From Niabella drilacis (lineage in GTDB: Bacteria; Bacteroidota; Bacteroidia; Chitinophagales; Chitinophagaceae): a stretch of DNA of 64,000 nt. Positions 12,308 to 39,868 of the stretch are shown here, in pieces (position 1 is the stretch's first letter; each line of letters opens with the position of its first letter). The notes beneath the pieces are model-generated. The model did not search any database. It had not been told where the DNA came from and worked only from the letters and a program-made list of their open reading frames with translations. Where the stretch lies: assembly GCF_900101395.1 (NCBI RefSeq), contig NZ_FMZO01000013.1:62001-126000 (forward strand). The letters run 5' to 3'. Position numbers and translations under genes: made by a program.

Positions 12308-12381
12308 TCCTCCTTAGCTCAGTTGGTTAGAGCATCTGACTGTTAATCAGAGGGTCGCTGGTTCAAGTCCAGCAGGGGGAG
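12308..12381 (+). tRNA. tRNA-Asn (anticodon GTT)
   Basis: All arms can be folded by hand. The acceptor TCCTCCT pairs with AGGGGGA, with discriminator G. The D stem is GCTC/GAGC, the anticodon stem TCTGA/TCAGA carries loop CTGTTAA, and the T stem GCTGG/CCAGC carries loop TTCAAGT. CCA is not encoded. Its 3' half (from 12338) is shared with the attachment-site copy at 18071-18115, so the 3' end of the present gene is probably supplied by an integrated element. Confidence 0.97.
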
Positions 12382-12382
12382 C
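12338..12382 (+). repeat. attL of island 1 (45-bp core, inside tRNA-Asn)
   Basis: The core runs from GACTGTTAATCAGAGG to GCAGGGGGAGC and is identical to 18071-18115. It spans part of the anticodon arm to one base beyond the tRNA 3' end, as is usual for tyrosine integrases. Confidence 0.93.
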
Positions 12383-17895: not shown

Positions 17896-17922
17896 AGCTG
17901 AATTTGTTTGCAATTTAGGTCA

Positions 17923-22169: not shown

Positions 22170-22511
22170 CTATTTTCTTTTGTAGTATCTATCCTTAGAT
22201 ATTTTATCCTTTTTTCTTCCGTTTTTGATTTTCTTTTTACTCCATTTATTTGCAAATTTTACTTCATTATTAATTATCCAATAATGACTTTGACATTCAA
22301 AACTCCAATTGCCAATGGATGGCCAAAGGGAAACCGTTTTGCCATCAAAAATCAGCTTCCAGTCAGTAGGCGTAAGCGGCGTTACAACTTTATTACCGCA
22401 GCCGCAAACACAATTATGTACTGCGGTTCGGTACTCCATTGAAATGTACAATACTTCTTCTTGTATTGTATTAGGAATGAATTCAACAAATTTATATTGG
22501 ATAGTCTTCAT
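22170..22511 (-). CDS. DUF6527-like zinc-binding protein of the ubiquitin-like operon
   Basis: 113 residues. Cys34, Cys36, Cys38 (CVCGCG) with Cys73 and His76 (FECQSHYWI) give a compact metal site, set in the DUF6527 pattern with PSIGNW and a basic C-terminal tail (KWSKKKIKNGRKKDK). Such genes sit next to ThiF and multiubiquitin genes in many bacteria; a treble-clef or RING-like helper of conjugation is a reasonable guess but unproven. Its start overlaps the end of the E1-like gene by 20 bp, so translation is coupled. It is the last gene of the operon. Confidence 0.75.
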   Translation of the reverse strand: MKTIQYKFVEFIPNTIQEEVLYISMEYRTAVHNCVCGCGNKVVTPLTPTDWKLIFDGKTVSLWPSIGNWSFECQSHYWIINNEVKFANKWSKKKIKNGRKKDKISKDRYYKRK

Positions 22512-23229
22512 TTAACAATTTACTGGTATTGATAAAATAAAGGGTATTATGCTCCTTCTTTAAATCCTGGTAAAATCCGCTAAGTTTCTTCCATTTGATC
22601 ACCGCCAGCATTGCATTAAGAGCGTTTAAATCGGCGATCTGAATATTGGTACTATAATCGTTTTCATCAAACTCTTCCGATCCGATTCTATTGCCAATAT
22701 GATCTTGCTTTGATTTCGTAACCGTAGTAACCCTTAGCGTACCGATAAGGTTGTCTTCAAGCATATTTACACCCAAACCCACGTCAATAAAACTAATTCC
22801 CATGCTCGAAAAGGTTTGTGATAACAGATGCCGGGTTTTATTTTTATCAACGCTGATAAATACATAATCAAATTCTCGAAATAGGTTCGTATTGCTTTCT
22901 GAGACAAACTCATCGTGCGTTATTATTCCATTATGCATACGAGAATATTCTCCATAGTAATAGTCTACCTTTTTCAGTCCGCCCGGCAAATCCAGCATTG
23001 CTGCGGATATTGCACCTGGTGCTCTGAAGGCGTTGTGTAGCTGAAAATAATCTGCATCAAAAATATGAATCTCTTTAACTGGCGTTTTGGCTACCTGATC
23101 CAGAATATACCCACCGGTGCCTCCCATGCCAATAATTGCGATTTTTTGATCTCTAAATTTTCTATTAAGATATTCAATGTTTGCCCGAGATGAATTCGTG
23201 TCGGGATATTTAAATATTTCCTTTTTCAT
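22492..23229 (-). CDS. ThiF/E1-like adenylyltransferase
   Basis: 245 residues. The nucleotide-binding loop GMGGTGG (about 35-41) with IFDADYFQLHNAFRAPG behind it and FIDVGLGV later are the E1/ThiF signatures. This enzyme should adenylate the C-terminus of a ubiquitin-like protein. No CxxC zinc pairs and no evident catalytic Cys in the usual place are seen, so transfer may involve the E2-like partner or go by an unusual route. It begins 2 bases after the stop of the E2-like gene; in many relatives the E2-like and ThiF parts are one polypeptide. Confidence 0.85.
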   Translation of the reverse strand: MKKEIFKYPDTNSSRANIEYLNRKFRDQKIAIIGMGGTGGYILDQVAKTPVKEIHIFDADYFQLHNAFRAPGAISAAMLDLPGGLKKVDYYYGEYSRMHNGIITHDEFVSESNTNLFREFDYVFISVDKNKTRHLLSQTFSSMGISFIDVGLGVNMLEDNLIGTLRVTTVTKSKQDHIGNRIGSEEFDENDYSTNIQIADLNALNAMLAVIKWKKLSGFYQDLKKEHNTLYFINTSKLLNEDYPI

Positions 23230-23231
23230 AA

Positions 23232-23681
23232 TTATGCTGCTTTTATCCTTTTGGGCCTTGCTGTTACACCACCGTCTATGCTTTTTGCTTGCGCACTTAA
23301 TATTTCTGCATAGGTTCTTATTTTATCATAGTAGTTGTTGTAGTAGCCCGAAGGGGGTTTGCTTGAGAAATAATGATTAACGGTAATGGTCTCAGTTAAT
23401 CTCTGGGTCGTACTGTTATTAATAATAGCAGTCAACGGAACGCCGTTTATATTACAGGGAGTCTCTCCACAAAAATATACGGTATGGTCTTGTGGTCGAC
23501 CAACTCTAGTGGAACTGGCTAACGTTAAAGCACAAACGAATATGCCATATTTAATTTGCTTATCAGAATTGACGAAAGGGATGCGATGGACAAGTAAATG
23601 TCCACCGCATATTTCCAGGTCATAGCCTTCGTCCCAAAGTTGCTTTAGGTCGGGGTTAAGATTTATCAGTTGCTGTTGCAT
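23232..23681 (-). CDS. E2-like (DUF6791-type) protein of the ubiquitin-like operon
   Basis: 149 residues. Landmarks are GYDLEICGGHLLVHRIPFVN, CGETPCNINGVPL (Cys71, Cys76) and HYFSSKPPSGYYNNYYDK (His103), the pattern of the domain that precedes ThiF in bacterial multiubiquitin loci, thought to be an E2-type fold. Cys71 or Cys76 are the candidates for a thioester, but this is inference. The gene overlaps the tandem Ubl gene by 26 bp and is followed by the E1 gene after two bases, so the set is translated as a unit. Confidence 0.75.
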   Translation of the reverse strand: MQQQLINLNPDLKQLWDEGYDLEICGGHLLVHRIPFVNSDKQIKYGIFVCALTLASSTRVGRPQDHTVYFCGETPCNINGVPLTAIINNSTTQRLTETITVNHYFSSKPPSGYYNNYYDKIRTYAEILSAQAKSIDGGVTARPKRIKAA

Positions 23682-24357
23682 GGAAAATCATTTTATTTTT
23701 TACAACGACATTTTGACCTTTAATCATAGACCCTTCGGGGTTTTCTTTTGGTCCATCCTCATAGGCAACTGTATAAACCATTGTGGGCTTATCAACGTAA
23801 CCATTATATGCCAATACAATGATTTCTACAAAGCTTATTTGTTTTTTATCCCATTTGTGTGGAGTTCCGTTAATAATAATAGTAACCTCAGTCTGTTTTT
23901 CTTTAGAATAAAAGCGCTCTTTACCTGGTCGAGCTAAATCCACTACTTCATCATCCGTTATCGGGTCATCCTGCCAACCTTCTTTGATATCTAGGAAAAT
24001 TTCATGTTCCGGAGGAATATTACCTAATTCCCGGATTTCACTTCCCTTGATATACTGCTTGTACCAGGTGAAAGGCTGATGATTTATAAAGAACTGAAGC
24101 TTCTTTTTAACAAAGAAATGCTCTATCTCCGGCCGAGCAAGGTTTACCTGCTTTTCATTCTCGATCAGTTCGTCACTGTATGGCTTTTGAACTGACAAAT
24201 ACAAATCCGTATCCAACGGGATTCCTGCCAGTTGTTTCAATTCTACACCAGTTATATACTGCTTGCTCCAGCTATAGCCTTTTGCTTCAATTACTAGTTG
24301 AAGTGGGGGGAGGCCTACATTATGCCCTTTTTCATTTTCAAAAGTCTCTTTTTTCAT
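23656..24357 (-). CDS. Tandem ubiquitin-like (multiubiquitin) protein
   Basis: 233 residues made of three beta-grasp repeats at about 15-84, 85-155 and 156-233. The first two share an obvious pattern: a strand pair, W(S/Y)KQYI(T/K)G, an ELxxLxxIPxxxxxxL segment, then VxLARPxxExFxxK. The third keeps HKWDKKQISFVEI and ends in the characteristic MIFHATATDKS, with no Gly-Gly tail. Multiubiquitin proteins are the modifiers or scaffolds of bacterial ubiquitin-like pathways, several of which protect against phage. It is the first gene of the four-gene operon; divergent AT-rich DNA upstream holds its promoter. Confidence 0.88.
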   Translation of the reverse strand: MKKETFENEKGHNVGLPPLQLVIEAKGYSWSKQYITGVELKQLAGIPLDTDLYLSVQKPYSDELIENEKQVNLARPEIEHFFVKKKLQFFINHQPFTWYKQYIKGSEIRELGNIPPEHEIFLDIKEGWQDDPITDDEVVDLARPGKERFYSKEKQTEVTIIINGTPHKWDKKQISFVEIIVLAYNGYVDKPTMVYTVAYEDGPKENPEGSMIKGQNVVVKNKMIFHATATDKS

Positions 24358-24459
24358 TTTAATTATTTTTTTGTTTTTTCTCCAATAAAACCGCGATGAA
24401 CTTAATGGGAGTTATTAAATCATCGATACAGCAATAATTCGATGTATGGTATAATAAAA

Positions 24460-24590
24460 AGAAACTTATACTTTCGCAATCGAATAAAAGGGGAGAATCA
24501 GGTGATCAGCCTGAGATGAGTCCGCTAAAACTTTAGTCCCTTATTTAACCCCAATCAACCACTGTATCAGTTGATTGGGGTTTTTATTTC
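24460..24590 (+). ncRNA. Candidate small RNA ending in a perfect terminator
   Basis: AACCCCAATCAAC (24547-24559) and GTTGATTGGGGTT (24570-24582) form a 13-bp perfect stem with a 10-base loop, followed by T5: a strong plus-strand terminator. No plus-strand gene lies upstream for it to serve, because both flanking genes start by pointing away. A -7-like TATACTTTCG sits at about 24466-24475, and the 60 bases between hold short self-complementary segments. A small RNA of roughly 110 nt is the simplest reading. Confidence 0.4.
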
Positions 24591-24690
24591 TGATCGGCAT
24601 ACTATTTTCTATTGAGAACAGAACAAAAGTAAAACAAAAATCTAAATATATCAAGCAAAGATAGATAAATTTACCAAAAACTTAGCAATA

Positions 24691-24722
24691 TTTGCTTTGT
24701 AACGCAGAAGTGTGTATTTTTG
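24691..24722 (+). promoter_or_regulatory. Promoter of the XRE/ImmA pair
   Basis: TTTG (24691-24694), 20-base spacer, TATTTTTG (24715-24722). The TTG at 24720 lies inside the -7 box, so it cannot be the start codon; ATG 24738 is. Confidence 0.75.
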
Positions 24723-24737
24723 CGAAAAATTAATTCC

Positions 24738-25073
24738 ATGAAATCGTTAGGAAAAACCTTAAAGGATTCTCGCGAATTGATTTCTCTTACATTAAGGCAA
24801 GTTGAAGAAGCTACTGGTATTTCAAATGCCTATTTAAGTCAATTGGAGAATGACAAGATTAAGAAACCGTCCGCCAATGTTTTATATAAATTAGCAAGCT
24901 TGTATAATGTTGAGCTGGATAGTCTTCTTTATGCAGCCGGAATAATCGAGCAAGAATCCCCCCAAAAAAATAAGCTATTGAATACAATAGCACTGTCGGC
25001 GGAAAAATTAACAAATGACGAGGAGCAAGCTTTATTAGATTATTTGAAGTATCTAAGATTTAGTAAAAAATGA
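24738..25073 (+). CDS. XRE-family helix-turn-helix regulator
   Basis: 111 residues from ATG 24738. The first 65 residues are a typical Cro/CI-type HTH (LGKTLKDSRELISLTLRQVEEATGISNAYLSQLENDKIKKPSANVLYKLASLYNV). The C-terminal helices (LSAEKLTNDEEQALLDYLKYLRF) may bind the partner protease. It shares an ATGA overlap with the ImmA gene. In known pairs ImmA cleaves the XRE repressor upon DNA damage or phage signals, releasing nearby genes; that role is inferred here. Confidence 0.85.
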   Translation: MKSLGKTLKDSRELISLTLRQVEEATGISNAYLSQLENDKIKKPSANVLYKLASLYNVELDSLLYAAGIIEQESPQKNKLLNTIALSAEKLTNDEEQALLDYLKYLRFSKK

Positions 25074-25975
25074 CGGAGCTTCATTCCTCTAAAGACATCG
25101 AGAAAATATCATATGATATTTTAAAAAGCTGCAAGGGGCTTGGGGTTTTTCCGACGCCAATAGATACTATTGTGGATTATTCTGAGTTGATCGTCAATAA
25201 TCAGGTTGATATCTCAAGGATTCACGATAGTTATTTGAGCAAAGCTACTAATGCATTATTCAAAGCGCTGTCAAAGGTGCGTGGTTTACTAGATAGAAGA
25301 AAAAAAACAATTTACTTAGATTTGTCTCAGCTTCCGACACGGAGAAATTTTGTAAAACTTCATGAAGTGGGACATGGTATTCTGCCTTGGCAAGCGAAAG
25401 TGCATGACGTACTGGACGACGACGATGATAGCTTAAGCCCTTATGTTATTGATGAGTTTGAAGCAGAAGCAAACTATTTCGCTTCCGTAACTTTATTTCA
25501 GCATGATATCTTCATAGAAGAACTTAAGAAACTGAATTTAAGTATGGAGTCCAACATGCAACTTGCGAAATTGTTTGGAGGTTCTATACATGCGACCTTG
25601 AGAAGGTATATTCAATGCTCTCCTAAAAGGTGCGCTTTATTAGTTTTGGAAAACAAATCATCGTTGAATTCGAATCGGGGTTGTTTTAAAAAAGCTTTTT
25701 TCGCCTCTACTAAATTTATCGAAACCTTTGGCGATATAGATTGGCCCGCTACATTTGATTTTAAATGGGCTTTTGCCAGTTCTTATTTGATTGGTAGGAA
25801 GGGCGTTCTTTCCGATAGTATAAAGTTGCAAACATTAAATGGTAATACAGAATTTAATTATCAATTTTTTAACAACTCATATAACGGATTTGTTCTTTTG
25901 TATCCTAATGGAGAAAAACAGAGATCAAGAACAAACATCATTATTACTGAAAGTTCTTCTGTAGGAAAAGTATAA
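25070..25975 (+). CDS. ImmA/IrrE-family zinc metallopeptidase
   Basis: 301 residues. HEVGH at 98-102 and the downstream DEFEAEANYFA (Glu131/Glu133) give the zinc site of the COG2856 peptidases. The N-terminal part (SYDILKSCKGLGVFPTPIDTIVDYSELIV) is the usual helical lead. The C-terminal 120 residues are beta-rich and may sense a ligand. It is translationally coupled to the XRE gene and converges on the dCTP deaminase gene, with only 11 bp between the stops. Confidence 0.85.
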   Translation: MTELHSSKDIEKISYDILKSCKGLGVFPTPIDTIVDYSELIVNNQVDISRIHDSYLSKATNALFKALSKVRGLLDRRKKTIYLDLSQLPTRRNFVKLHEVGHGILPWQAKVHDVLDDDDDSLSPYVIDEFEAEANYFASVTLFQHDIFIEELKKLNLSMESNMQLAKLFGGSIHATLRRYIQCSPKRCALLVLENKSSLNSNRGCFKKAFFASTKFIETFGDIDWPATFDFKWAFASSYLIGRKGVLSDSIKLQTLNGNTEFNYQFFNNSYNGFVLLYPNGEKQRSRTNIIITESSSVGKV

Positions 25976-25986
25976 GTCGGACAGAT

Positions 25987-26595
25987 TTAAGTAACATAAT
26001 TATTTTGCTTCCAAATTGACTGTAAACGTTTCAAGTCACTGTCTGCTGCAACCGCCGACATTACAGGTCGAACTTGGCACATATACTTTCTCTTTTTTTC
26101 AAAGTAATTAATCGATTCGCTTATTTCGAACAATCTTGCTTGAATTATCGCGGCGCCCACTGTTAGATTAATGGGGACTTTATTTATATTGGTTAACTCC
26201 ATTGAAATACACCCGCAATAGCCGGGTTGTACAATTGCTGAAATTGTTAGGCCTAGTCTTAGATATGAACTGCGAAGAGTTAGTTCGGCATATGTGTTTG
26301 ATGGCAATTTTATGTATTCTAAGCTACTGACTAAAACTGTTTGATTTGGGTGGAGTAGAAAAGTTTCTCCCAGTTTTCTCCGAGTTTCTTGAAAGCTATT
26401 CTTAATTGGAAATTTGTCATTATTGTTCAACGAGGCATCAATAAACGGGTTACTTCCATTAATGGTAACTAAAAAATCTGTGCCAATTCGAAAATCGATA
26501 GTTAAATCGCCGATTTGATCTTCCTCTAATAGAGGGCTTATTGACAAGTTTTCACTTTTTATAAGCGCCTTAATTTGTGTTTTTGTCAATGTCAT
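25987..26595 (-). CDS. dcd: dCTP deaminase-family enzyme
   Basis: 202 residues from ATG 26595, which starts 4 bp after the zincin gene ends; the open frame from 26646 would overlap that gene. The family core is intact: LRSSYLRLGL (Ser109/110, Arg113), QPGYCGCISMELTN with the presumed catalytic Glu133, and PINLTVGAAIIQARLFE. Cellular Dcd deaminates dCTP to dUTP. Relatives in defence islands deplete dCTP during phage infection. Its place in an island, behind a protease gene, argues for the latter. The N-terminus is longer than in housekeeping Dcd and may be regulatory. Confidence 0.85.
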   Translation of the reverse strand: MTLTKTQIKALIKSENLSISPLLEEDQIGDLTIDFRIGTDFLVTINGSNPFIDASLNNNDKFPIKNSFQETRRKLGETFLLHPNQTVLVSSLEYIKLPSNTYAELTLRSSYLRLGLTISAIVQPGYCGCISMELTNINKVPINLTVGAAIIQARLFEISESINYFEKKRKYMCQVRPVMSAVAADSDLKRLQSIWKQNNYVT

Positions 26596-26599
26596 AAAC

Positions 26600-27772
26600 T
26601 TATTTTGGTATGCTGTTCCATTCTTTGGTAATGATAAAATTACCAATCGATTTTTCTATCAGATTGTTTATTACCTCATATACATTAAAGCTTGATAAAG
26701 AAAATTTTATTCCAGAAGCGGAGTTGATGTTCTTCCAATCATCAAGCCAAACCTTCCACCCATATATAAACAAACCATGAAGCTCTTGGGGATCTGTTAC
26801 ATCGAAAGGAATCAATTTTTCAAAATTTTGTGAAGAAAAATCTTTGCTTCTGTTTTCAATTTCCCGGCCTGTTATGTCTTTTATTATTCGTTTGTACTCA
26901 TTTATGACATATCCTGACTTGCCAGTTAAGTGGTTATTAATAAATATAATCCGATTTACAGTTGATGGGTGTGAAGAGCTATATTTGACACTGTTTAAGG
27001 TTATGTATTCGAGATAATAGTTAGCGCAATCCTTGATGTATTGGCTGGCAAAAAGGTCACAAAAATATTCGCATATGTGCATTGCAAAGATATTTCCTGG
27101 TCCATAGTTTTTTTCAAGCTCATCTACAAGATCAGGATCGCTTAGATATGGAAAATATTGGATAACATCCCTCTCATCGTTAGGAGGTAGTCCGCTTTTC
27201 ATAGCCTTAAGCAATTCTAGATAAATTACTCTACCGATAACATACGTCTTTTCTATAAAATGACCAAGTTCATGATACAACACTACGTTAGCTAAGTAGT
27301 CTTTAGATATTGTTTTAGGAAGATTTATTTGTATTAGTTTTTGTTTGAACGTCACTCCATACAATAATTCAATAACTTTATAAAGAAGGTCAGCAGAAGT
27401 TAAAGTATTATCAAAGCTGAATCCATTTAATTCATTAACTAAGGAAGTGACAATGAGGTATTGATCTGATGACGACCAGTCATTTAATGCCAGCTCTAAT
27501 ACATAAACTAGCTCGAAAGGAATTGTTGATGTTGTACTATGGTTAAGAAACTCTAAGCTTTTGAAGACAAAGTTGATTATGTAAAACCTTTGACTTAATT
27601 CGCTTCCAGTCATGCTCGAAAAATCTTCGAGTTCTAGTTTTTGTATAATTATAGCGAGATTATCATGATATTCCTTTTTTCTAACGTCCGAATAGCTATT
27701 GTATTTTGATGTTTTCCACTCGGCAAGAAGCTGCGAAAAGTGAAGCTCAAATAGTTTTGGTAGCATTGGCAA
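26600..27772 (-). CDS. HELGH zincin metallopeptidase-like protein partnered with dCTP deaminase
   Basis: 390 residues. HELGH at 167-171 (VVLYHELGHFIEK) and Glu235 (EYFCDLFASQYI) form a gluzincin-like metal site. There is no signal peptide or membrane helix, so it should act in the cytoplasm. The flanking domains match no family I know. It ends 4 bp before the deaminase gene and starts 12 bp after the 103-aa gene, making a tight three-gene operon. A protease that activates or releases the deaminase, or senses infection, is an inference. Confidence 0.75.
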   Translation of the reverse strand: MPMLPKLFELHFSQLLAEWKTSKYNSYSDVRKKEYHDNLAIIIQKLELEDFSSMTGSELSQRFYIINFVFKSLEFLNHSTTSTIPFELVYVLELALNDWSSSDQYLIVTSLVNELNGFSFDNTLTSADLLYKVIELLYGVTFKQKLIQINLPKTISKDYLANVVLYHELGHFIEKTYVIGRVIYLELLKAMKSGLPPNDERDVIQYFPYLSDPDLVDELEKNYGPGNIFAMHICEYFCDLFASQYIKDCANYYLEYITLNSVKYSSSHPSTVNRIIFINNHLTGKSGYVINEYKRIIKDITGREIENRSKDFSSQNFEKLIPFDVTDPQELHGLFIYGWKVWLDDWKNINSASGIKFSLSSFNVYEVINNLIEKSIGNFIITKEWNSIPK

Positions 27773-27784
27773 TTCTATTACGCA

Positions 27785-28096
27785 TTAATAATAAGTAGCT
27801 TCTTTTGAGCTAGCTATAATATCTAACACTTTAGAATATGTTTGTTTATTGTAATCGTGAGGACTAATCGATAATTGCTGAAAGTATGATTTGTCTAGGT
27901 CTGTCAATAATAAAATAATATTAATGGCATCTCTATTGATATCATATAAGCTCTTCTCCCCGACTGTATATTGATGCGTTTCATGAATTACATCATTAAC
28001 AGCAGAAGCATAGTTAATATTTCCCTCCACAGCATGGGTAAGAAAAATAGTAAACAGTTTAAGTTTTTCGTTTTCTTGATTATGCGAATACAACAT
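27785..28096 (-). CDS. Small helical protein, first gene of the zincin/deaminase operon
   Basis: 103 residues, acidic and helical (NEKLKLFTIFLTHAVEGNINYASAVNDVIHETHQYTVGEKSLYDINRDAINIILLLTDLDKSYF). No family is recognised. It starts at ATG 28096 and is followed after 12 bp by the zincin gene. Its small size and lead position suit an inhibitor, adaptor or sensor for the protease/deaminase pair; none of this is shown by sequence. Confidence 0.65.
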   Translation of the reverse strand: MLYSHNQENEKLKLFTIFLTHAVEGNINYASAVNDVIHETHQYTVGEKSLYDINRDAINIILLLTDLDKSYFQQLSISPHDYNKQTYSKVLDIIASSKEATYY

Positions 28097-28526
28097 AACG
28101 CTTATTTTTCAGATTAAATAACTTAGAAAGAGCAATAAGATTATAAACGCCAAATTTGGTTTCAGTAGTGGCTATTAAATTGGCACAGTACACAAGATTG
28201 ATGTTAAGTTATAATTAATAATCAAATATAGGAGAATAAATAACGCAAAATAATTAACAGGTGTTAATAACTTGTATATGTAGCAGTATTTCATATATTT
28301 AGCTATTGTTCCTAATTTGATGAACATATGTAAACAGCTGAATAGGCACGCCCAAAAGTTTTTTTGAGTTTAAGAAAAGTAGATTGTGGGTATAATGAAT
28401 TATCCTTTTGTCTTAAGACATCCACTTTGTCGATTGATTCCCGATTGTCTGGTTTTAGTTGTATTGAGTTTTCATAGAACGCTACAGCCGCTTTTTTAGT
28501 AATGCCTGATCAGATTTTCTAACATA
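28097..28526. other. AT-rich intergenic stretch upstream of the zincin operon
   Basis: 28097-28310 is very AT-rich and probably holds the promoter of the 27785-28096 gene; I see no clear consensus box. The rest contains the TPR-gene remnant listed separately. Confidence 0.4.
28312..28500 (-). pseudogene. Remnant of a TPR-protein gene (3' end)
   Basis: The minus strand reads TKKAAVAFYENSIQLKPDNRES, a tetratricopeptide-repeat signature, continues through DVLRQKDNSLYPQSTFLKLKKTFG and stops at TAG 28314-28312. No start or upstream repeats remain. It is probably the tail of a lost gene. Confidence 0.5.
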
Positions 28527-28847
28527 TCAATTTTTCTTCCCCGTCCTCTTTCCCTTTTCAGCAATTACCGCCAACTCTTTAAGCAGTTTTTTCTTTTCCT
28601 CGCCCTCGATGTCTTTAGAGGAAATAAAAAAGTCCTTCAGATCCCGGTTGATGGTAAGCGCAATGCGGAAGAAGGTAGCAAGTGGGGGTTGTATGGTATT
28701 TGTAGCCCATTTTGATACGGTTGCCGGCTCATAACCTAACGCTTCTGCAAGATCCTTGTTAGATACTCGTTCCTCTTTTAAAACAACAGCCAGCCTGTTC
28801 ATGACCAGATGGGCAGATTTTCTTTTAGGGGTCATTATTTTACTCAT
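28527..28847 (-). CDS. XRE-family helix-turn-helix regulator
   Basis: 106 residues. The HTH is clear (MNRLAVVLKEERVSNKDLAEALGYEPATVSKWATNTIQPPLATFFRIALTINRDLKDFF). Basic tails lie at both ends. Start at 28847, with ATG 28835 as alternative. It is divergent from the HEPN cluster at 29239, across 390 bp containing a complex inverted-repeat structure, and may control that transcript. Confidence 0.82.
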   Translation of the reverse strand: MSKIMTPKRKSAHLVMNRLAVVLKEERVSNKDLAEALGYEPATVSKWATNTIQPPLATFFRIALTINRDLKDFFISSKDIEGEEKKKLLKELAVIAEKGKRTGKKN

Positions 28848-29238
28848 CGGGTAAATAAATTGTTCTTATGGAACACAATTTACAAGATTGTAACAAATTG
28901 ATTTTTAACTAAAAGAGTTGTTGTGAAAAATAAAATTGTTATTGTGTAACAATTGTGTTATATTGCATAACAATTTTATAAAAACTTTTTTATGACATAG
29001 AAAATTATACAATAACGTATAAAAGCGTATTTGCTTTATTCCCGATTCTGAAATTACGACAAATCATTGATCTCGGGAGGATAAGGTAAATCGCTCGCGT
29101 TTTCCTTATTTTTAAGGTTCAGGCGTGGGCGTTCTTATTTGAGATCAAGGGTGTCGTAACCCTCAGAATCATTAAGGACCAACCCACGTCTTTTTTATGC
29201 ATGTTTGGTTGGTCTGTATGCATATTCTTCACCTTTAA
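28848..29238. other. Gene-free regulatory region between divergent units
   Basis: 28848-29040 is highly AT-rich with several TTGTT/AACAA half-sites (for example ATTGTTACAC-like stretches near 28930-28975) and probably contains the promoter of the XRE gene. 29044-29214 holds the structured element listed next. Confidence 0.4.
29044..29214 (+). ncRNA. Structured element of unknown function before the HEPN cluster
   Basis: Three colinear helices nest: GATTCTGA (29044-29051) with TCAGAATC (29163-29170); TTACGACA (29054-29061) with TGTCGTAA (29152-29159); TTGATCTC (29067-29074) with GAGATCAA (29141-29148). The 66-base interior has its own stem (ATAAGG/CCTTAT). Downstream, GACCAACC (29077+100, that is 29177-29184) pairs with GGTTGGTC (29207-29214), and CCCACGTCTTTTTT at 29183-29196 is terminator-like. 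It could be a non-coding RNA, an RNA antitoxin or a leader; the strand is assumed. Confidence 0.5.
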
Positions 29239-29709
29239 ATGCTTTCCGCCATGCAAAAGACATCCACCCGCAAACAAAAACAACACAAGCCCAAGCCGGA
29301 ACTAAAATGGCAAACCGGTGCCTATGAGCGTTTTGCTGATTTCAACTTCATTCTCCCATATCAATTCCTGCTGCTCTGCCGCCTGATGGACGTAACGCCC
29401 CGGGAGGCTTTAACCGATTTTATGGATAACCTGTCCTGCGGCAGTTGGAACCGTAAGGGCCGGGACTCAGCCAAAGAACACCTCATCAATTATTTTATTG
29501 CACACGGTTACGGACAGGAGCATTATACAGAAGCCAACATTCGCCAAATTTTTAAGGAAATGGATGCCGTTGGCCTGCTGTTTCCACGAGAAAGCAATGG
29601 TAAAATGGTAGACCGGTACGCTAAATGGCGGGATAAGCACCAAAACTGGTGGTTTAAAAAATGGTACCGCAAACCCAGGCATACACCATTAAAAAAGGAG
29701 GCGCAATGA
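29239..29709 (+). CDS. Hypothetical island protein, first gene of the HEPN cluster
   Basis: 156 residues, very basic and Trp/Tyr-rich (KWRDKHQNWWFKKWYRKPRHTPLKKEAQ at the end), with LPYQFLLLCRLMDVTPREALTDFMDNLS in the middle. No family is recognised; relatives appear to be common next to HEPN genes on Bacteroidetes mobile elements, from memory. ATG 29239 is used; ATG 29251 is an alternative. Its stop overlaps the HEPN gene start by ATGA, so the products are probably needed together. Confidence 0.65.
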   Translation: MLSAMQKTSTRKQKQHKPKPELKWQTGAYERFADFNFILPYQFLLLCRLMDVTPREALTDFMDNLSCGSWNRKGRDSAKEHLINYFIAHGYGQEHYTEANIRQIFKEMDAVGLLFPRESNGKMVDRYAKWRDKHQNWWFKKWYRKPRHTPLKKEAQ

Positions 29710-30590
29710 ACCCGTTTAGCATTTACCACCTGTGCCCGGAGGGATTTCCCCGTTTTCAACAGCAGCTTACGGATGTGATCATAAAAACTACTACTCCGGA
29801 TATGATCTTTTTGCTGGGAGCAATGCTGCACCGTAAAAGAAGCGAAAGCATATTTAATGAATCGGCCCCATACAGCCAGCAACTGTCTGATTGTACTCTC
29901 CTCATTTTGCTGCCCAACCTTGCCAATAAAGAGCTGCATGAATGGCAGGATAAAATAGAAAACCATTGCGGCGCCATTCTGCCGGTTACCACACTTGTAT
30001 TGGCTACACCCACTTTTGTGGAGTGGCTGCAGGCCTGTCTGCCCTTTGCTCTGTCCGTATGGCGACACGCCCCTGTGCTGTATGATACTGGGCACATTTG
30101 CCGGGAGGATATCCCGGAGCTGAAAGCCCCCATCAGTAATAAGGACGCGATTAAACAATGGGAGGATGGATTATCAAAAGCCAGGGAGTTTTTGGCGGGG
30201 GCAGAACTATACCGAGTGCGCAAACAGCATAAAATGGCGGCTTTTATGCTGCATCAATCGGCGGAGCAGGCATTACGGGCGCTGCTGAAAGCGGGAACCG
30301 GTTACCATGCAAATACGCATAGTATTGACCGGCTGCTCCGTTATAGCAGCCTGGTGGCGCATCAACTGCCGGAAATATTTCCCCGGCAAACGGAGCAGGA
30401 CAAGCGCCTGTTTAATCTTTTGCAAAAAGCTTATATAGACACGCGGTATAAGGAAGATTATAAAATTACGGATGAAGAATTGTTGACCCTTACCGGAAAG
30501 GTCCGGTGCGTACATGAGTTGTTATCCGATGCCAGAAACTGCTTTAAAAATGCACCGTTACAGTCTGAATTACAAAATACTTCCCAATAA
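29706..30590 (+). CDS. HEPN-domain protein with N-terminal nucleotidyltransferase-like part
   Basis: 294 residues from ATG 29706 (coupled to the previous gene). The C-terminal half is a HEPN domain of the MNT-associated type: LYRVRKQHKMAAFMLHQSAEQALRALLKAG (about 165-195) and HSIDRLLRYSSLV. The N-terminal 130 residues (TLLILLPNLANKELHEWQDKIENHC...) look like a degenerate nucleotidyltransferase or a binding domain without clear catalytic residues. HEPN proteins are often RNases in toxin-antitoxin and defence systems. Here the Rx4-6H motif is not obvious, so activity is uncertain. Confidence 0.75.
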   Translation: MNPFSIYHLCPEGFPRFQQQLTDVIIKTTTPDMIFLLGAMLHRKRSESIFNESAPYSQQLSDCTLLILLPNLANKELHEWQDKIENHCGAILPVTTLVLATPTFVEWLQACLPFALSVWRHAPVLYDTGHICREDIPELKAPISNKDAIKQWEDGLSKAREFLAGAELYRVRKQHKMAAFMLHQSAEQALRALLKAGTGYHANTHSIDRLLRYSSLVAHQLPEIFPRQTEQDKRLFNLLQKAYIDTRYKEDYKITDEELLTLTGKVRCVHELLSDARNCFKNAPLQSELQNTSQ

Positions 30591-30603
30591 AAACACCCAA
30601 TTT

Positions 30604-31182
30604 ATGAAAGCCAACACCACCGGCAGACAGCGTTTTTACAAATCCTGGCATTTTCTTAACCAGGGAGGTAAACGGCCGTTGCGCATCCTATGGGAAGTAT
30701 TTTATAATTATCACCTGGATGAACTGCGGGATGAGCTTCAATGCTGGCAGCAGTGTGCTTTATGTAATGACAATAGTGCGTATAGTGAAGAGGGCGCAAG
30801 GGAAGACCTGATGGATTTTATCCGGCACCTGCTCCGGCTTATTGAAGCCTATTATATATTGAATGAATGTAAAAATTCCGGCAAAAAGCGCAGGCAGCAA
30901 AAAGGATTGTCAAAAGAGGCGCGGCAAATGATTGCTAAAATGAGCACTCCGGTTTTACTGACCGCCAATGAAAAGAAAGATCCGGGGCAAGTCATTACCC
31001 AATTTTGCAAAACCTTTCGCCAGTCATATGTGCAAATGGAACTGCTGGATATGCTGGACGCGGTGATTACCTATAAGGGATATAAAGAAGTATATAAAGG
31101 AAACCTGGTACTATTCTATGAGCATTTGCATTGTTTAGTAAGGCTGGCGTATGGCTCTTGTAAACATAAAAGGAAGGTATAA
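30604..31182 (+). CDS. Hypothetical helical protein, third gene of the HEPN cluster
   Basis: 192 residues from ATG 30604, chosen because the upstream frame overlaps the HEPN gene. All-helical, with RILWEVFYNYHLDELRDELQCWQQCAL, DLMDFIRHLLRLIEAYYILNE and YKGNLVLFYEHLHCLVRLAY. No family is recognised; the length and helical content resemble HEPN-like or helper proteins. It starts 13 bp after the HEPN gene and ends with a basic tail (KHKRKV). Confidence 0.65.
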   Translation: MKANTTGRQRFYKSWHFLNQGGKRPLRILWEVFYNYHLDELRDELQCWQQCALCNDNSAYSEEGAREDLMDFIRHLLRLIEAYYILNECKNSGKKRRQQKGLSKEARQMIAKMSTPVLLTANEKKDPGQVITQFCKTFRQSYVQMELLDMLDAVITYKGYKEVYKGNLVLFYEHLHCLVRLAYGSCKHKRKV

Positions 31183-31247
31183 AAGTATTAAATTATTATG
31201 CTTTATAGTCAATGCATAAGCAAACCATCGATCCGTGCGTTTTTTAA

Positions 31248-31280
31248 GTTGTCGCAAATTTTTACTAAATTTGCGACAAC
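31248..31280 (+). promoter_or_regulatory. Inverted-repeat operator over the promoter of the AbiE pair
   Basis: GTTGTCGCAAATTT (31248-31261) and AAATTTGCGACAAC (31267-31280) are exact reverse complements separated by 5 bases. The -7-type box TAAATTTG (31266-31273) lies inside the right arm. AbiEi antitoxins bind inverted repeats to repress their own operon, so this fits as the autoregulatory site. Confidence 0.75.
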
Positions 31281-31294
31281 AATATAATAGAATA

Positions 31295-31909
31295 ATGCCT
31301 GAAAGTATTGAAATACAAATACTTGATAAAATAAAAAAAGCCAAGAGGGGTTCGCTGTTTTTCGTGGAAAATTTTGTCAACATAGCAAATGCAAAATCAG
31401 CCAATAAAGCATTGGAACGATTGGTGAATACGGGAGAATTAGAACGCCTTGCTATGGGAATTTATTATCGTCCCGCAACGAACGATTTGATAGGAAAATT
31501 AACACCAAATCTTGAATCGGTTGCGATTGCTATTGCCAGGCGGGATAGGGCAAGAATTGTTCCGACAGGCGCGTATGCACTCAACCGGTTAGGGATTTCC
31601 ACACAAGTACCTATGAACGTTGTTTATCTTACAGACGGCTCTGCACGAAAAATAAAAATCGGCAAGCGAAGCATCTTATTCAAAAAGGCAAGCCCCAAAA
31701 ATGTGGCCGCTGTTGGTGAAATAAGCGGTTTGGCCATTCAGGCATTAAAAGCAATCGGAAAAGATAATGTTCTTGACGCGGAGATAAAACACATCCAGCA
31801 TCTATTGAAAAAAGAAAAACCAACACGGCTTGAGCACGATATACGCCTTGCACCAGCCTGGATTAGAGAAATAATGTTACCTGTTCTAAAACAGTTAGTG
31901 GATGGATAG
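31295..31909 (+). CDS. AbiEi-type antitoxin (DUF6088 family)
   Basis: 204 residues from ATG 31295, 15 bp after the operator. The N-terminal winged helix (ILDKIKKAKRGSLFFVENFVNIANAKSANKALERLVNTGELERLAMGIYYRP) binds DNA. The rest (RIVPTGAYALNRLGISTQVPMNVVYLTDGSARKIKIGKRSILFKKA) is the AbiEi core. It should repress the operon and neutralise the neighbouring toxin. Its 3' end overlaps the toxin gene by 8 bp. Confidence 0.88.
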   Translation: MPESIEIQILDKIKKAKRGSLFFVENFVNIANAKSANKALERLVNTGELERLAMGIYYRPATNDLIGKLTPNLESVAIAIARRDRARIVPTGAYALNRLGISTQVPMNVVYLTDGSARKIKIGKRSILFKKASPKNVAAVGEISGLAIQALKAIGKDNVLDAEIKHIQHLLKKEKPTRLEHDIRLAPAWIREIMLPVLKQLVDG

Positions 31910-32912
31910 AAATAAAATATCATATTGGCTTCAGTTATCGGAGCAAGATCGTCAGGATATTTTTGAAGAATCGGCAACACAAAAGGGATTGTCCGCAGCA
32001 GCAATAGAAAAAGATTGGTGGGTGGTGCAAACATTATCCATGATCTTTTCAATGAGCTATGCCAATGTTTTGGTTTTTAAAGGCGGCACATCGTTGAGCA
32101 AAGGGTGGAATTTAATACAACGTTTTTCGGAAGATATTGATTTGGCGCTGGATAGGGAATTTCTTGGCTTTACAGGCAAATTGAGCAAGGGTGATATCAA
32201 AAAGCTAAGGAGAAAATCCTATGAGTTCATAACAGAAACTTTTACTGAAGAACTGAAAGAAAAGTTTGCTGAATTGGGTTTTGACAATGTTTTGATAAAA
32301 TACCGGGAGGTAGAGAATCATGACCAGGATCCATTGATTATTGAAATTTATTATCCTACGGTAATTGCAAAAGACAGCTATTTAAAACCCGCGGTATTAG
32401 TGGAATTAGGTAGTCGGTCTCTGAAAGAGCCGTTTTCAAAAAGAAGTTTTGGTACCATCGTTTCAGAAGTATTTGCTGATCGGCCTTTTTCGGATATGCC
32501 GATAACTATTCCTGTTGTAAATCCTGAACGAACATTTTTGGAAAAGATATTTTTGCTGCATGAAGAATTTCAGAAAGCACCCGATAAAATACGCGTGGAA
32601 CGGTTAAGCAGACACCTTTACGATATTGAGAAACTAAGCAGGACGGAATATGCTGAAATTGCTTTGCAAAACGCGGAACTATATAATACAATAGTTGTGC
32701 ATCGTAGTAAATTTACACCAATTTCAGGAATTGACTATGCCAATCATTCGCCGGATAAAATCAACTTTATTCCACCCACGGAAATAATAAAACATTGGGA
32801 GCGGGATTATGGAACAATGACTCAGACAATGATTTACGATAATCCGTTACGCTTTGATGAACTCATAAAACGACTTATCCAATTGCAAAAAAGAATAAAT
32901 GAGATAGGCTAA
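31902..32912 (+). CDS. AbiEii-type nucleotidyltransferase toxin
   Basis: 336 residues. The polymerase-beta-like nucleotidyltransferase motif is intact: FKGGTSLSKGWNLIQRFSEDIDLALDRE (GGTS plus SEDIDL). Later come VLVELGSRS and VNPERTFLEKIFLLHE, also typical. AbiEii toxins transfer nucleotides to RNA (tRNA acceptor ends in studied cases) and cause abortive infection. The gene is translationally coupled to the antitoxin and followed by a 9-bp hairpin and the TOTE helicase gene. Confidence 0.9.
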   Translation: MDRNKISYWLQLSEQDRQDIFEESATQKGLSAAAIEKDWWVVQTLSMIFSMSYANVLVFKGGTSLSKGWNLIQRFSEDIDLALDREFLGFTGKLSKGDIKKLRRKSYEFITETFTEELKEKFAELGFDNVLIKYREVENHDQDPLIIEIYYPTVIAKDSYLKPAVLVELGSRSLKEPFSKRSFGTIVSEVFADRPFSDMPITIPVVNPERTFLEKIFLLHEEFQKAPDKIRVERLSRHLYDIEKLSRTEYAEIALQNAELYNTIVVHRSKFTPISGIDYANHSPDKINFIPPTEIIKHWERDYGTMTQTMIYDNPLRFDELIKRLIQLQKRINEIG

Positions 32913-32936
32913 CTTATACACAAGGGAGTGTATAAG
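32913..32936 (+). repeat. Hairpin between the AbiE pair and the helicase gene
   Basis: CTTATACAC (32913-32921) pairs with GTGTATAAG (32928-32936) around 6 bases, directly after the toxin stop codon. There is no T tract, so an operator or RNA-stability element is as likely as a terminator. Confidence 0.5.
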
Positions 32937-32958
32937 CCGTGTACAAGTTCTATAAAGG

Positions 32959-35900
32959 TTGATTAAAAATGCATCACTGAATTTGTCTGAACAGGAGATC
33001 AATAAAAAAATTGCATTATTCCGTTCCCTTTTTAAAGGTCGGGATGATGTATTTGCAACTCGTTGGGAGATCCCAGCCCGTTCACCAGGCGATGAAGTCA
33101 AAAGTGGTTACATGCCCGCTTATTTATATGACCCCTATCGGTATCGGGCGCATAAAATGAAAGGCGGCACTTTTCAAAATTACGCAGATAAAAAATATTT
33201 GCAGCTTACAGATGATCAGCTTACTAAACATTTAAACGGAGAGCAACTTATTGGAATATACCCTTTATTGCAAAACAACACCTCCTGGTTTATTGCTGCG
33301 GACTTTGATGAACAGAACTGGATAGCCGATAGTAAAAAATTTTTGGAATGCTGCAAAGCAAAAAAAATACCGGTCTACCTGGAGCGTTCCCGCTCAGGAA
33401 AGGGCGGGCATGTATGGATATTTTTCAAGGAGCCTTATCCTGCCATCAAAGGCAGAAAGATATTCCTGTTGCTCCTCAATGAATCGGGCGCGGTTTCTGT
33501 TTTTGATAAAAACTCAAGCTTTGACCGGTTATTCCCAAACCAGGATACGCTTTCGGGGAAAGGATTGGGTAACCTGATAGCATTGCCGTTACATAAGACC
33601 GCTTGGGATCAGGGAAACAGTTGCTTTATTGATCCGCAGACCTTGTTGCCATTTCCTGATCAATGGAGTTTTTTGTCAGGGATTCAAAAAGTGGATAGTG
33701 AAACGCTGGATGAAATCTATCATTCGATATCTGCTGGAAAACCCGCTGATACAACTATTATTAAAAAAGAAGCAACTGATCATTTAACCATATCTCTAAA
33801 CAATACGCTGCAATTGAACCGATCAGCAATACCACTTTCACTTATCAACTTTCTTAAAGAAGAATTGAATTTTACGAACACGGCATTTCTCATCAAAAAG
33901 AAGATCGGCAAGAATACATTTGGCACGGAGCGGTATTTTCGGTTTATTGAAGAAACAGAAAACGATGTTATTGTACCAAAGGGATTTGCTGGCAGGTTAT
34001 TGCGGTTTTGCAGAAATGCCGGCATTACTTTTAGTTTTGAAGACCGTAGAGAAAAGAAAGCATCCTTACAATTCAACTTTCAAGCGGAGTTAAGAAATTA
34101 CCAGGCTCCGGCCGTGGAAGCTGCTGACAAAAAAGATATGGGCGTAATTGTGGCTCCTCCTGGCGCAGGCAAAACAATTATGGGATTAAAGATCATTGCA
34201 GACAAGCAGCAACCGGCTTTAATCGTTGTGCACCGGAAACAATTGATGGATCAATGGATGGATCGGATTGAAGCATTTCTTGGTATCTCAAGGCAAAAAA
34301 TCGGGAAAATTGGCCAGGGGAAATTGAAAATTGGAGAACATGTGACAGTTGCTACTATTCAAAGTCTTGCTAAAGAATTAGCGAAAAATGAAAGTGCCGA
34401 AATTAAAGACGCATTTGGCACAATACTTATAGATGAGTGTCATCATATTCCTGCCGAGACCTACCGAAATACCATCCAACAATTCAATAGCTATTACTTG
34501 TATGGATTTACAGCAACTCCTTTTAGAAAATACAATGATGGTCGATTAATTTTTATTCACCTGGGAGAAATTATTGCAGAAATAACTGCACAACAAACGG
34601 GCAAACACAAACATGCCACCATTATTGTGCGAAATACAGATCTGGACGTGCCCTTCAATTCAAAAACAGACCGGTTTGAAACGCTGTCCAGAATCCTGGT
34701 ACATGATTCTGCCCGGAACAAACTGGTTTTACAGGATATTACCAGTGAATTGAACACAGGCAAGAAGGTAGTTATTCTTACAGAGCGAAAAGAACATATT
34801 GATTCTTTAGAGCAATACCTGAAGCAATCTTACGAAGTTGTTACATTAAGTGGTGACGATATGGAAAGCAGTCGCGCCGCGAAATGGAAACTATTAAATG
34901 CCGGTAGTTATCAGGCTTTGATAACAACCGGGCAATTCTTCGGTGAAGGAACGGACCTCCAGAATGCGAACTGCTTATTCCTGGTGTACCCTTTTTCTTT
35001 TGAAGGGAAATTGATACAGTATATAGGCCGGGTGCAACGATCAGAACTTACGCCAATCGTATACGATTATCGTGATATTAAAATTGACTACCTGAACAGA
35101 ATGTTCCTGAAGCGGAATACTTATTACAGGAAATTAATCCGCCAGTCAACTTTGTTTGATGATCCGGTAGAGGACGAAGCTCCTGTTCCCCAAAAAAGTG
35201 AATTGGTGACGATCGACAAGGAAATAAGTGTGCCGATTGAGTCGCTGGAATTCAGATATGGAAGCATTGCTTTCTCATATACAACCGATGCAGCTATAAA
35301 AATGGAGTTGGAAATACCGCATGATGATATTCGACCTGAATTTGAAGTGCTGAAGCCCTATTTTGAAAAAGCGCTGAAGTCAAAACATATTAGAGTGGCT
35401 ATTTACGCAGAGATAGAAAAAGGACAACTGGTAGCACAATTGGCATCTTCAGATGATCTTCAAAAGATAAACCGGCAAATTATTGATGGTGTTCGATTTC
35501 AATTCATTGCTAAACCACTTTTTGGAAAAGCAAACCCGGATAATAAAAATGGGTTAGGGCAGCAGTTACAAACGAAACATCCTTTATACGAATCAGGCGA
35601 AGAGCTGCTGGACGATGCATTAAAATATACTCAATACAAACACCATAAGCATCTTCGGTACCTTGCCGATAATCACGCGGGACATTTGGTAAAGATCCGG
35701 TTTGTATTGCAGCCATTCTCCTTTGTATTTCTTTTGGAAGGTATGGAGCAATTTCATATGATCCTGGAAACACTGGATACAGAAGAGGCAAGTTATCTTT
35801 GGCATTTTCCAAAAAGCGTTTCGGAATTACCACAACGACTAACAGAGATCGATAGAAACCTGGATATTATCCGGAAGCAAGGGCGACAGGGATTTTTGAC

Positions 35901-36000
35901 GGCTCCGCCGGAAAATTTCAGCCGGGTATTGCATGATTATGCTGATGAGCAAAAGGGATTTGTCCTTTGGAAACATGCGTTGGAAGAGCAGTTGGTTTAA
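32959..36000 (+). CDS. TOTE-type primase-helicase fusion (defence/conflict effector)
   Basis: 1013 residues. N-terminal archaeo-eukaryotic primase domain (about 35-230) with the DxD pair (FIAADFDEQ, Asp115/Asp117) and SGKGGHVWIFF (His151). SF2 helicase (about 370-740) with Walker A APPGAGKT (about 397-404), DECHH (about 492-496), FTATPFR and YIGRVQRS. The C-terminal 270 residues are uncharacterised. TOTE systems join a primase, a helicase and nuclease parts in phage or plasmid conflict; I see no nuclease motif here. No ATG lies in the first 60 codons; TTG 32959 or TTG 32983 must start it. The position behind AbiE suggests shared cargo. Confidence 0.85.
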   Translation: MIKNASLNLSEQEINKKIALFRSLFKGRDDVFATRWEIPARSPGDEVKSGYMPAYLYDPYRYRAHKMKGGTFQNYADKKYLQLTDDQLTKHLNGEQLIGIYPLLQNNTSWFIAADFDEQNWIADSKKFLECCKAKKIPVYLERSRSGKGGHVWIFFKEPYPAIKGRKIFLLLLNESGAVSVFDKNSSFDRLFPNQDTLSGKGLGNLIALPLHKTAWDQGNSCFIDPQTLLPFPDQWSFLSGIQKVDSETLDEIYHSISAGKPADTTIIKKEATDHLTISLNNTLQLNRSAIPLSLINFLKEELNFTNTAFLIKKKIGKNTFGTERYFRFIEETENDVIVPKGFAGRLLRFCRNAGITFSFEDRREKKASLQFNFQAELRNYQAPAVEAADKKDMGVIVAPPGAGKTIMGLKIIADKQQPALIVVHRKQLMDQWMDRIEAFLGISRQKIGKIGQGKLKIGEHVTVATIQSLAKELAKNESAEIKDAFGTILIDECHHIPAETYRNTIQQFNSYYLYGFTATPFRKYNDGRLIFIHLGEIIAEITAQQTGKHKHATIIVRNTDLDVPFNSKTDRFETLSRILVHDSARNKLVLQDITSELNTGKKVVILTERKEHIDSLEQYLKQSYEVVTLSGDDMESSRAAKWKLLNAGSYQALITTGQFFGEGTDLQNANCLFLVYPFSFEGKLIQYIGRVQRSELTPIVYDYRDIKIDYLNRMFLKRNTYYRKLIRQSTLFDDPVEDEAPVPQKSELVTIDKEISVPIESLEFRYGSIAFSYTTDAAIKMELEIPHDDIRPEFEVLKPYFEKALKSKHIRVAIYAEIEKGQLVAQLASSDDLQKINRQIIDGVRFQFIAKPLFGKANPDNKNGLGQQLQTKHPLYESGEELLDDALKYTQYKHHKHLRYLADNHAGHLVKIRFVLQPFSFVFLLEGMEQFHMILETLDTEEASYLWHFPKSVSELPQRLTEIDRNLDIIRKQGRQGFLTAPPENFSRVLHDYADEQKGFVLWKHALEEQLV

Positions 36001-36080
36001 ATGGTCGCGAATGTTTATAAATTAAACATTTTACCGTAAAATCGTTGGGTTTTAATCGTTTTACAGGGGCTTTAATTGAT

Positions 36081-36100
36081 TTACAGGTTTTTGCCTGTAA
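36081..36100 (+). terminator. Hairpin after the TOTE gene, shared with the convergent fic gene
   Basis: TTACAGG pairs with CCTGTAA around TTTTTG. Just upstream, two degenerate copies of TTTAAT-TTTACAGG occur. The T run is inside the loop, so termination is likely weak. Confidence 0.4.
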
Positions 36101-36122
36101 TGTTTAGCAGGAAGATCAATGC

Positions 36123-39640: not shown

Positions 39641-39868
39641 GAATCATACTTCACATTAAAGTATACTATTTTAAAGAATCTTCTTTGCTGTTTACAGGAA
39701 AGAATTCCATCAGCCGGTCTGCTCTTGTGTACTTTTCGTTCCGGGAACGGTTTCGGCAACGTTCCCGATACATCTTGTTTATTGGTTAGCAAATTTGCAT
39801 ACTAATTCCAACTAAATTGCTTTTAGTTGTGATAACAACGAAACCTAAAGTATATAACGATTTTGTTT

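Follow-up and report, generated by a model that had tools for sequence, protein, structure and literature searches.

A candidate mobile defence cassette of a small protein, an M48-like zincin and a Dcd-like protein in Niabella drilacis

Known systems and the three-gene locus

Anti-phage dCTP deaminases are known as AvcD, as dCTPdeaminase in DefenseFinder and as dCTPase in PADLOC; to our knowledge, AvcD has no zincin partner. They were reportedly described by Hsueh et al. (2022) and Tal et al. (2022). According to one paper, the enzyme depletes dCTP once host transcription is blocked (PMC12409349). The same nucleotide pool would be the target of the Dcd-like protein encoded in the three-gene locus (trio) described here, which lies in a 64,000-nucleotide stretch of the Niabella drilacis genome (Bacteroidota; contig NZ_FMZO01000013.1, positions 62,001 to 126,000). 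The whole of this stretch is called the window. The minus-strand open reading frames (ORFs) at 28096-25987 encode a small protein, a HELGH zincin and the Dcd, in that order, with the following features.

27785..28096, minus strand: small protein of 103 aa, encoded by the first trio gene; modelled as a four-helix bundle and without a Pfam family
26600..27772, minus strand: M48-like zincin, 390 aa, second gene; start TTG 27772 or ATG 27766
27260..27274, minus strand: HELGH zinc-binding motif, zincin residues 167-171; invariant in 53/53 aligned zincins
27056..27070, minus strand: likely third zinc ligand motif E235xFxD239; E235, F237 and D239 invariant in 53/53
25987..26595, minus strand: Dcd-like protein, 202 aa from ATG 26595, third gene; PF22769, TIGR02274
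26257..26274, minus strand: Dcd RSS (108-110) and Arg113, equal to E. coli R110-S112 and R115 in the Dcd alignment
26227..26247, minus strand: shortened allosteric/base-binding loop TISAIVQ, E. coli Dcd minus three residues in the Dcd alignment; Gln123 replaces Asp128
26197..26199, minus strand: Dcd catalytic Glu133 (E. coli Glu138); present in 57/57 operon Dcds

A gap of 12 bp separates the end of the small ORF (27785) from the zincin start (27772), and one of 4 bp separates the zincin end (26600) from the Dcd ATG (26595). An earlier note on this DNA had described three same-strand genes with these gaps, a Dcd keeping RSS, Arg113 and Glu133, and a zincin with HELGH and a downstream Glu. The coordinates hold up in the sequence, and all of the residues are present, the downstream Glu being E235.

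The same note had taken the known defence dCTP deaminase as a precedent; that enzyme proved to belong to another protein family (PF00383), not to the dUTPase-superfamily Dcds. The anti-phage dCTP deaminase encoded at L037:622-2244 (541 aa) is of the zinc-binding cytidine-deaminase family and matches PF00383 and the PADLOC dCTPase model; whereas the trio Dcd is of the dUTPase superfamily (PF22769), and the window Dcd matches neither of the two. The Dcds of L034, L037 and L099 also gave no PADLOC match, while the deaminase at L037:622-2244, used as positive control, did. A search of 24300-29300 against Rfam for an RNA antitoxin of AvcD type gave no match; Rfam may lack RNAs of this kind. By protein family, the trio is not a member of the AvcD-type system, but it may work in a similar way. 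The gene set, held by the earlier note to be undescribed, was found in none of PADLOC-DB 2.0.0 (2023), Pfam, NCBIfam and, mostly among the top-listed papers, the open-licence literature; DefenseFinder's current models and most preprints lie outside this scope. The Rhizobium plasmid L037 carries its known-type deaminase (PADLOC dCTPase, 619-2244) about 5 kb from its trio.

Other known proteins resemble the single members of the trio. Housekeeping Dcds (PF22769, TIGR02274) and the operon Dcd both pass the family cut-offs and have the catalytic Ser, Arg and Glu; whereas the operon Dcd falls in a separate clade, its dTTP loop lacks three residues, an Asp is replaced by Gln, and a zincin is encoded next to it. 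Peptidases of family M48 share HExxH, ExFxD and HPxxxxR with the trio zincin; however, the window protein scores under the Pfam cut-off, and a transmembrane-like stretch was found in 0/53 aligned zincins. In the CapH/CapP and ImmA-type regulator-protease pairs, too, a defence island combines a protease with a neighbouring small protein, and a CapP-like ImmA adjoins the trio in the window. Unlike in these pairs, the zincin of the trio does not match M78/ImmA, nor does the window small protein match a helix-turn-helix.

Conservation and spread of the trio

A pattern scan with the zincin only, in which each of 84,980 species was represented by a single genome, yielded 56 loci among 99 stretches, mostly from Bacteroidota and Proteobacteria. 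A Dcd gene lies directly downstream of the zincin in 56/56 of these genome loci, the opposite of a zincin occurring mostly without Dcd, a prospect that had been raised beforehand. The small gene is found upstream in 52/56 (recognised by profile at 37 loci and by its position and start pattern at 15), and the four misses (L059, L070, L072 and L092) have a broken zincin frame or a contig end; the L072 row in this count is a zincin fragment. The partner profiles were built from the window and seven plasmid sets, and gene starts were picked by script. With such starts, stop/start overlaps of 1, 4 or 14 bases are frequent among the trio loci. The zincin or Dcd frame is broken at five loci (L059, L071, L072, L087 and L094). 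Because distant loci preserve the gene order and the shared strand, and catalytic residues are invariant across 53 zincins and 57 Dcds, the trio is more than chance; chance neighbours are ruled out by the 56/56 pairing.

The proteins of the trio diverge in a correlated way. For 32 Bacteroidota-type rows the zincin and Dcd distance matrices correlate at r 0.72, and for 14 Alphaproteobacteria at r 0.98, with 0/2000 permutations as high; the distances among all three proteins also correlate strongly within each of these two groups. The trio is rare and patchy. By BLAST, the zincin was positive in 1/395 genomes of the phylum sample, which is the window's own, with no relative in the 394 others or in the relatives sample, which adds 58 genomes to the window's own (the samples overlap). 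When 398 genomes of Pseudomonadota and 395 of Bacteroidota were searched by profile, the matches were the two centre genomes and three weak matches (L140, L137 and L138). No zincin relative was found by BLAST in 50,697 phage records. Viral contigs gave nothing with the single zincin protein; a search with the alignment gave two loci, of which L096 is complete and L097 has a degenerate zincin without Dcd. Taken together, the sequence comparisons show that the zincin and Dcd genes, with the small gene, form a conserved and horizontally spread unit.

The window Dcd matches PF22769 at 98.8 bits (cut-off 27) and TIGR02274 at 116.6 bits (cut-off 92.8). In a tree of 93 Dcds, the 57 operon Dcds form one clade (SH-aLRT, the Shimodaira-Hasegawa-like approximate likelihood ratio test, 99; branch 2.34). 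Another clade (SH-aLRT 100) unites 31 housekeeping Dcds of Bacteroidota, including that of the host. The tree came from a quick search without bootstrap, and long branches among its five other rows leave the placement of L099 unsure. The Dcd alignment contains 57 operon rows and L099, without L039, L059, L070, L071, L072, L087, L094, L096 and L097. By E. coli numbers, Arg110, Ser111, Arg115 and Glu138 occur in 57/57 operon Dcds and Ser112 in 56/57; we take Ser111, Arg115 and Glu138 to have catalytic roles in Dcd. At the site of His121 the operon Dcds have Ser or Asn (54/57), Gly (2) or Ala (1); at that of Asp128 they have Gln (54/57), Glu (2) or His (1); and a three-residue deletion (124-126 in the alignment) is found in 57/57. 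They are unlike the housekeeping Dcds in this respect, which have an HVTA-type loop and Asp128, with His121, Ala124 and Asp128 in 31/31. One study reports that the allosteric loop of DCDs contains an HVTA peptide which shifts on dTTP binding, that the loop mediates dTTP inhibition, that the Ala of this peptide bonds the base, and that the loop is shorter by 2-3 residues in eukaryotic dUTPases (PMC4827122). We infer that the operon Dcds have lost the dTTP feedback and have a changed base pocket.

The host genome (6.1 Mb) encodes its own housekeeping Dcd at C29:583389-583814 besides the trio Dcd, and also has a shorter dUTPase-like match (C30). The possibility that the operon Dcd groups with housekeeping Dcds in a host without another copy, raised by the earlier note, was thus not borne out: the clade is separate and the host keeps another copy. 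A housekeeping operon is ruled out by the separate clade together with the host's own Dcd and dUTPase-like gene. A separate or double-domain Dcd was also found in 27/37 host genomes searched, a split read from the search table for hand-picked genomes (37 of 56) of unstated completeness.

Among the zincins, H167, E168, H171, E235, D239, H268, P269 and R274 are invariant in 53/53 aligned sequences, and the protein is therefore likely an active protease, as judged from these residues. The alignment holds 53 of 66 rows (65 loci and the window). The rows left out (L059, L070, L071, L072, L074, L075, L081, L084, L086, L087, L095, L096 and L097) had broken or cut frames or unclear starts, and included one near-duplicate and one degenerate sequence. 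The window zincin reaches 15.9 bits against the M48 family PF01435, under the cut-off of 20.3; when the zincins of L034, L037, L043 and L068 were scanned besides it, only that of L068 cleared the cut-off (21.1). Its AlphaFold2 model has a pLDDT of 95.1 and a pTM of 0.93. Foldseek of this model against the PDB gave nothing at E<=0.001; the top match was 3c37, a putative Zn-dependent peptidase (E 0.53), which is presumably an M48 structure. A PDB sequence search with the zincin matched designed helical proteins solely. The M78/ImmA family PF06114 has no match in the trio zincin and matches only the neighbour at 25070-25975; the zincin as an ImmA relative is ruled out by the absent profile match.

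The small protein is predicted by AlphaFold2 to be a four-helix bundle (pLDDT 86.6, pTM 0.77), and its fold had no PDB match at E<=0.001. Pfam assigned the window protein neither a family nor a helix-turn-helix. The small proteins have a median pI of 5.2 (range 4.2-9.1). Their alignment holds 58/66 rows of low identity, without L039, L059, L069, L070, L072, L092, L096 and L097.

The trio is also carried by plasmids. A zincin BLAST of 72,556 plasmids yielded 15 records, and all seven that were viewed carry the full trio; they come from Emticicia, Bradyrhizobium, Shinella, Rhizobium, Agrobacterium and two E. coli P1-like elements. On the Emticicia plasmid the trio lies between type I restriction genes. 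A tblastn search of the plasmids with the Dcd gave 16 records at >=41 % identity among 60 of the 71 records listed, namely the 15 zincin records and the Sinorhizobium plasmid L098. Among the matches listed, the plasmid collection contains no intact Dcd of the operon clade without a zincin. L098 (4265-5498) has a zincin remnant and a split Dcd without the catalytic Glu, as if the two had decayed jointly.

Near-identical Dcd and zincin genes occur in 8/5426 complete E. coli genomes, the same eight for both, and all of these copies are on plasmids of 90-109 kb with 0 chromosomal (by megablast, which misses diverged copies). The two E. coli plasmids viewed are P1-like phage-plasmids by gene content, with Ref, Icd-like, maturation control and baseplate genes. 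Matches to the trio's downstream flank occur in 119 plasmid records, and in 48 of these they cover >=80 % of it; whereas the zincin is carried by 10 E. coli/Salmonella plasmid records. In a six-frame profile check, all three trio genes are absent from four chosen flank-bearing plasmids, and in two of these plasmids a different small gene lies directly against the downstream neighbour. The trio is therefore an optional insert, able to stand without the multiubiquitin module.

Distant relatives were found as well. The Rhizobium phaseoli plasmid L099 (4243-12486) has a second trio of a 138 aa protein, a 416 aa HELGH protein and a Dcd. It shares with the main trio the gene order, the overlap of the first two frames and the Gln at the Dcd Asp site. 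The L099 Dcd loop is one residue shorter than that of E. coli, and the zincin is only distantly related to the main zincins (hhalign probability 92.5 % and 88.9 % for two zincin alignments). R. aethiopicum (L143) has an L099-type trio in a host that has the main type too. Downstream of the L099 trio are S8 peptidase, trypsin-like and AAA ATPase genes. A still more distant HEIGH zincin (94.8 %) comes at the end of a same-strand run in a Bacteroidota locus (L141, 4834-9773), where a class II Argonaute and a Cas4-like nuclease precede the HEIGH zincin and a 148 aa protein. No Dcd was found in 11 kb around this run. Zincins of this kind may be a shared defence part. The Salinibaculum plasmid L100 (3092-5570) has an archaeal Dcd with the canonical Asp after two proteins similar by eye, and is possibly another Dcd-linked cassette.

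Setting of the trio in the defence island

The earlier note's defence-island setting agrees with the annotation, in which AbiEii, HEPN, TOTE and Fic genes surround the trio in an island linked to an integrase and a tRNA gene. The features on the side of the Dcd gene are as follows.

12308-12382: tRNA-Asn
16609-17913: integrase
22170-22511, minus strand: DUF6527, of the neighbouring multiubiquitin module
22492-23229, minus strand: ThiF/E1, same module
23232-23681, minus strand: DUF6791, same module
23656-24357, minus strand: multiubiquitin (Pfam scan); the module, 22170..24357, is probably a separate system
24738..25975, plus strand: genes for an XRE regulator and an ImmA/IrrE-type peptidase, which diverge from those of the multiubiquitin module and converge with the trio

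The rest of the island (29661-37220) contains HEPN, AbiEii with a partner, a TOTE primase-helicase and a Fic/SoFic-like gene; the AbiEi label for the AbiEii partner (31235-31909) is given by position alone. A TonB-receptor-type gene starts at 39863. The multiubiquitin/DUF6791/ThiF/DUF6527 genes are a bacterial ubiquitin-like conjugation module, which is found again near the trio in Bacteroidota and Alphaproteobacteria.

Multiubiquitin was found in the flanks (up to 8 kb) of 17/65 trio loci, 12 from Alphaproteobacteria (partly near-relatives) and 5 of Bacteroidota type, and ImmA was detected near the trio in 13/65. The queries were the window proteins, so that diverged versions would be missed, and 22/65 loci had <6.5 kb on a side. 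Anywhere in the genome, the multiubiquitin family occurs in 22/395 Bacteroidota genomes, and 21/22 multiubiquitin genomes of the phylum sample (presumably the same 395-genome draw) show no zincin. The gene order of multiubiquitin and trio differs between lineages. The association is real, but it is not obligatory. Among 111 chosen neighbours (of 239) scanned with PADLOC and Pfam at E<=1e-5, the hits included ThiF (5), M78/CapP-like (4), mad2 (4), phage integrase (4), JAB (3) and type I methylase (2), among ordinary genes. These tallies list 25 of 200 and of 162 families, so that we give no union count and make no claim of enrichment. A link to ribonucleotide reductase was considered and rejected: its genes lie upstream in L044 and L046, from related hosts, and were taken as local chance.

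Explanations of the trio and their meaning

A defence role is likely from this context. Our leading interpretation, held tentatively and with slightly more doubt than confidence, is that the trio is a self-contained mobile defence cassette against phages or other invaders, with the Dcd as effector, the small protein as restraint and the zincin as switch. The small helical protein would keep the Dcd inactive in healthy cells. On infection the zincin would be triggered and would cut the small protein or another restraint. The released Dcd-like protein would then deaminate a cytosine deoxynucleotide, the likeliest reaction being that of dCTP to dUTP; dTTP would fail to stop it, and the pool needed for phage replication might be drained. 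The earlier note had similarly proposed that the protease and the small protein might sense infection or keep the deaminase inactive. Because its catalytic residues are kept, we lean slightly to the Dcd rather than the zincin as effector.

Several observations weigh against this cassette model. None of the three trio proteins matched PADLOC (PADLOC-DB 2.0.0, 2023). The altered loop is the site of the base-binding Ala in DCDs, and Asp128 is changed to Gln in 54/57, so that the operon Dcds may have a substrate other than dCTP or lost activity. In 10/37 hosts the trio Dcd was found alone, with or without a dUTPase-like match; these are six Flavobacteriaceae/Weeksellaceae, three other Bacteroidota and one Geobacter. 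The argument from an extra copy fails in those ten hosts, while that from patchy presence still holds. Moreover, the neighbours of the 56 loci are mixed and include ordinary genes. The small proteins of different phyla are 9-55 % identical to that of the window, and their homology is the weakest link.

The roles might also be reversed, which is possible, with doubt clearly prevailing. The Dcd-like protein would then sense a nucleotide (dCTP, dUTP, dTTP or a phage-modified one), the zincin would be an effector protease unleashed on a change of the pool, and the small protein would be an adaptor. All or nearly all operon Dcds have a rebuilt base-binding/feedback loop and a replaced Asp, yet they still match the family profile, and the zincin core is invariant in 53/53; both observations fit this reading. 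The distant zincin encoded with an Argonaute and a Cas4-like nuclease, without a Dcd, suggests that such zincins join other defence proteins; however, a zincin in the Argonaute run is more probably an accessory than an effector. As one paper describes, the SaPI repressor Stl is controlled by proteins of the dUTPase fold that serve as nucleotide-gated switches (PMC5608427). On the other hand, the conservation of Ser111, Arg115 and Glu138 in 57/57 goes beyond the need of a pure sensor.

A toxin-antitoxin or addiction module, which would stabilise plasmids and islands with little direct anti-phage role, is unlikely. The small first gene, the overlapping frames and the carriage by plasmids and phage-plasmids would fit; but most loci are on genome-assembly contigs without a plasmid label, and two conserved enzymes with a small protein would be an unusual toxin-antitoxin layout. 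Furthermore, HigA/RelE pairs are already present on the two P1-like elements viewed.

It is even less probable that the trio serves a mobile element by supplying nucleotides or by anti-defence, providing dUTP for its own DNA or removing a host nucleotide signal. Conjugative plasmids and P1-like elements carry the trio, and some phages make dU-DNA with a dCTP deaminase of the dCMP-deaminase family (PMC12697855). Zincin relatives are, however, 0 in the 50,697 phage records, and the window copy lies among defence genes, with the trio beside multiubiquitin genes on three viewed plasmids.

One larger machine of trio, multiubiquitin conjugation module and XRE-ImmA, with the zincin as its protease, is very improbable: multiubiquitin does flank 17/65 loci in both Bacteroidota and Alphaproteobacteria and in varied order, against 22/395 Bacteroidota genomes, but it was undetected at 48/65 loci (with the short flanks and missed diverged versions noted above), it is absent from the viewed phage-plasmid cassettes, 21/22 multiubiquitin genomes have no zincin, and defence genes cluster anyway.

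On a broader view, a Dcd of the dUTPase superfamily may have left biosynthesis to become either a sensor of nucleotides or an effector proof against feedback, working only with its own cytosolic zinc protease, with the zincin family as a general defence part that elsewhere accompanies Argonaute; as a whole this proposal is on the unlikely side. If the trio is a defence system, it would bring a second, unrelated deaminase family into nucleotide-pool immunity, and one coupled to a protease; we know of no protease in the known nucleotide-depletion systems. The clade-wide change of the dTTP loop predicts an enzyme that dTTP could not stop, or a sensor. Since a natural E. coli version exists on P1-like elements, the trio would be directly testable in laboratory strains.

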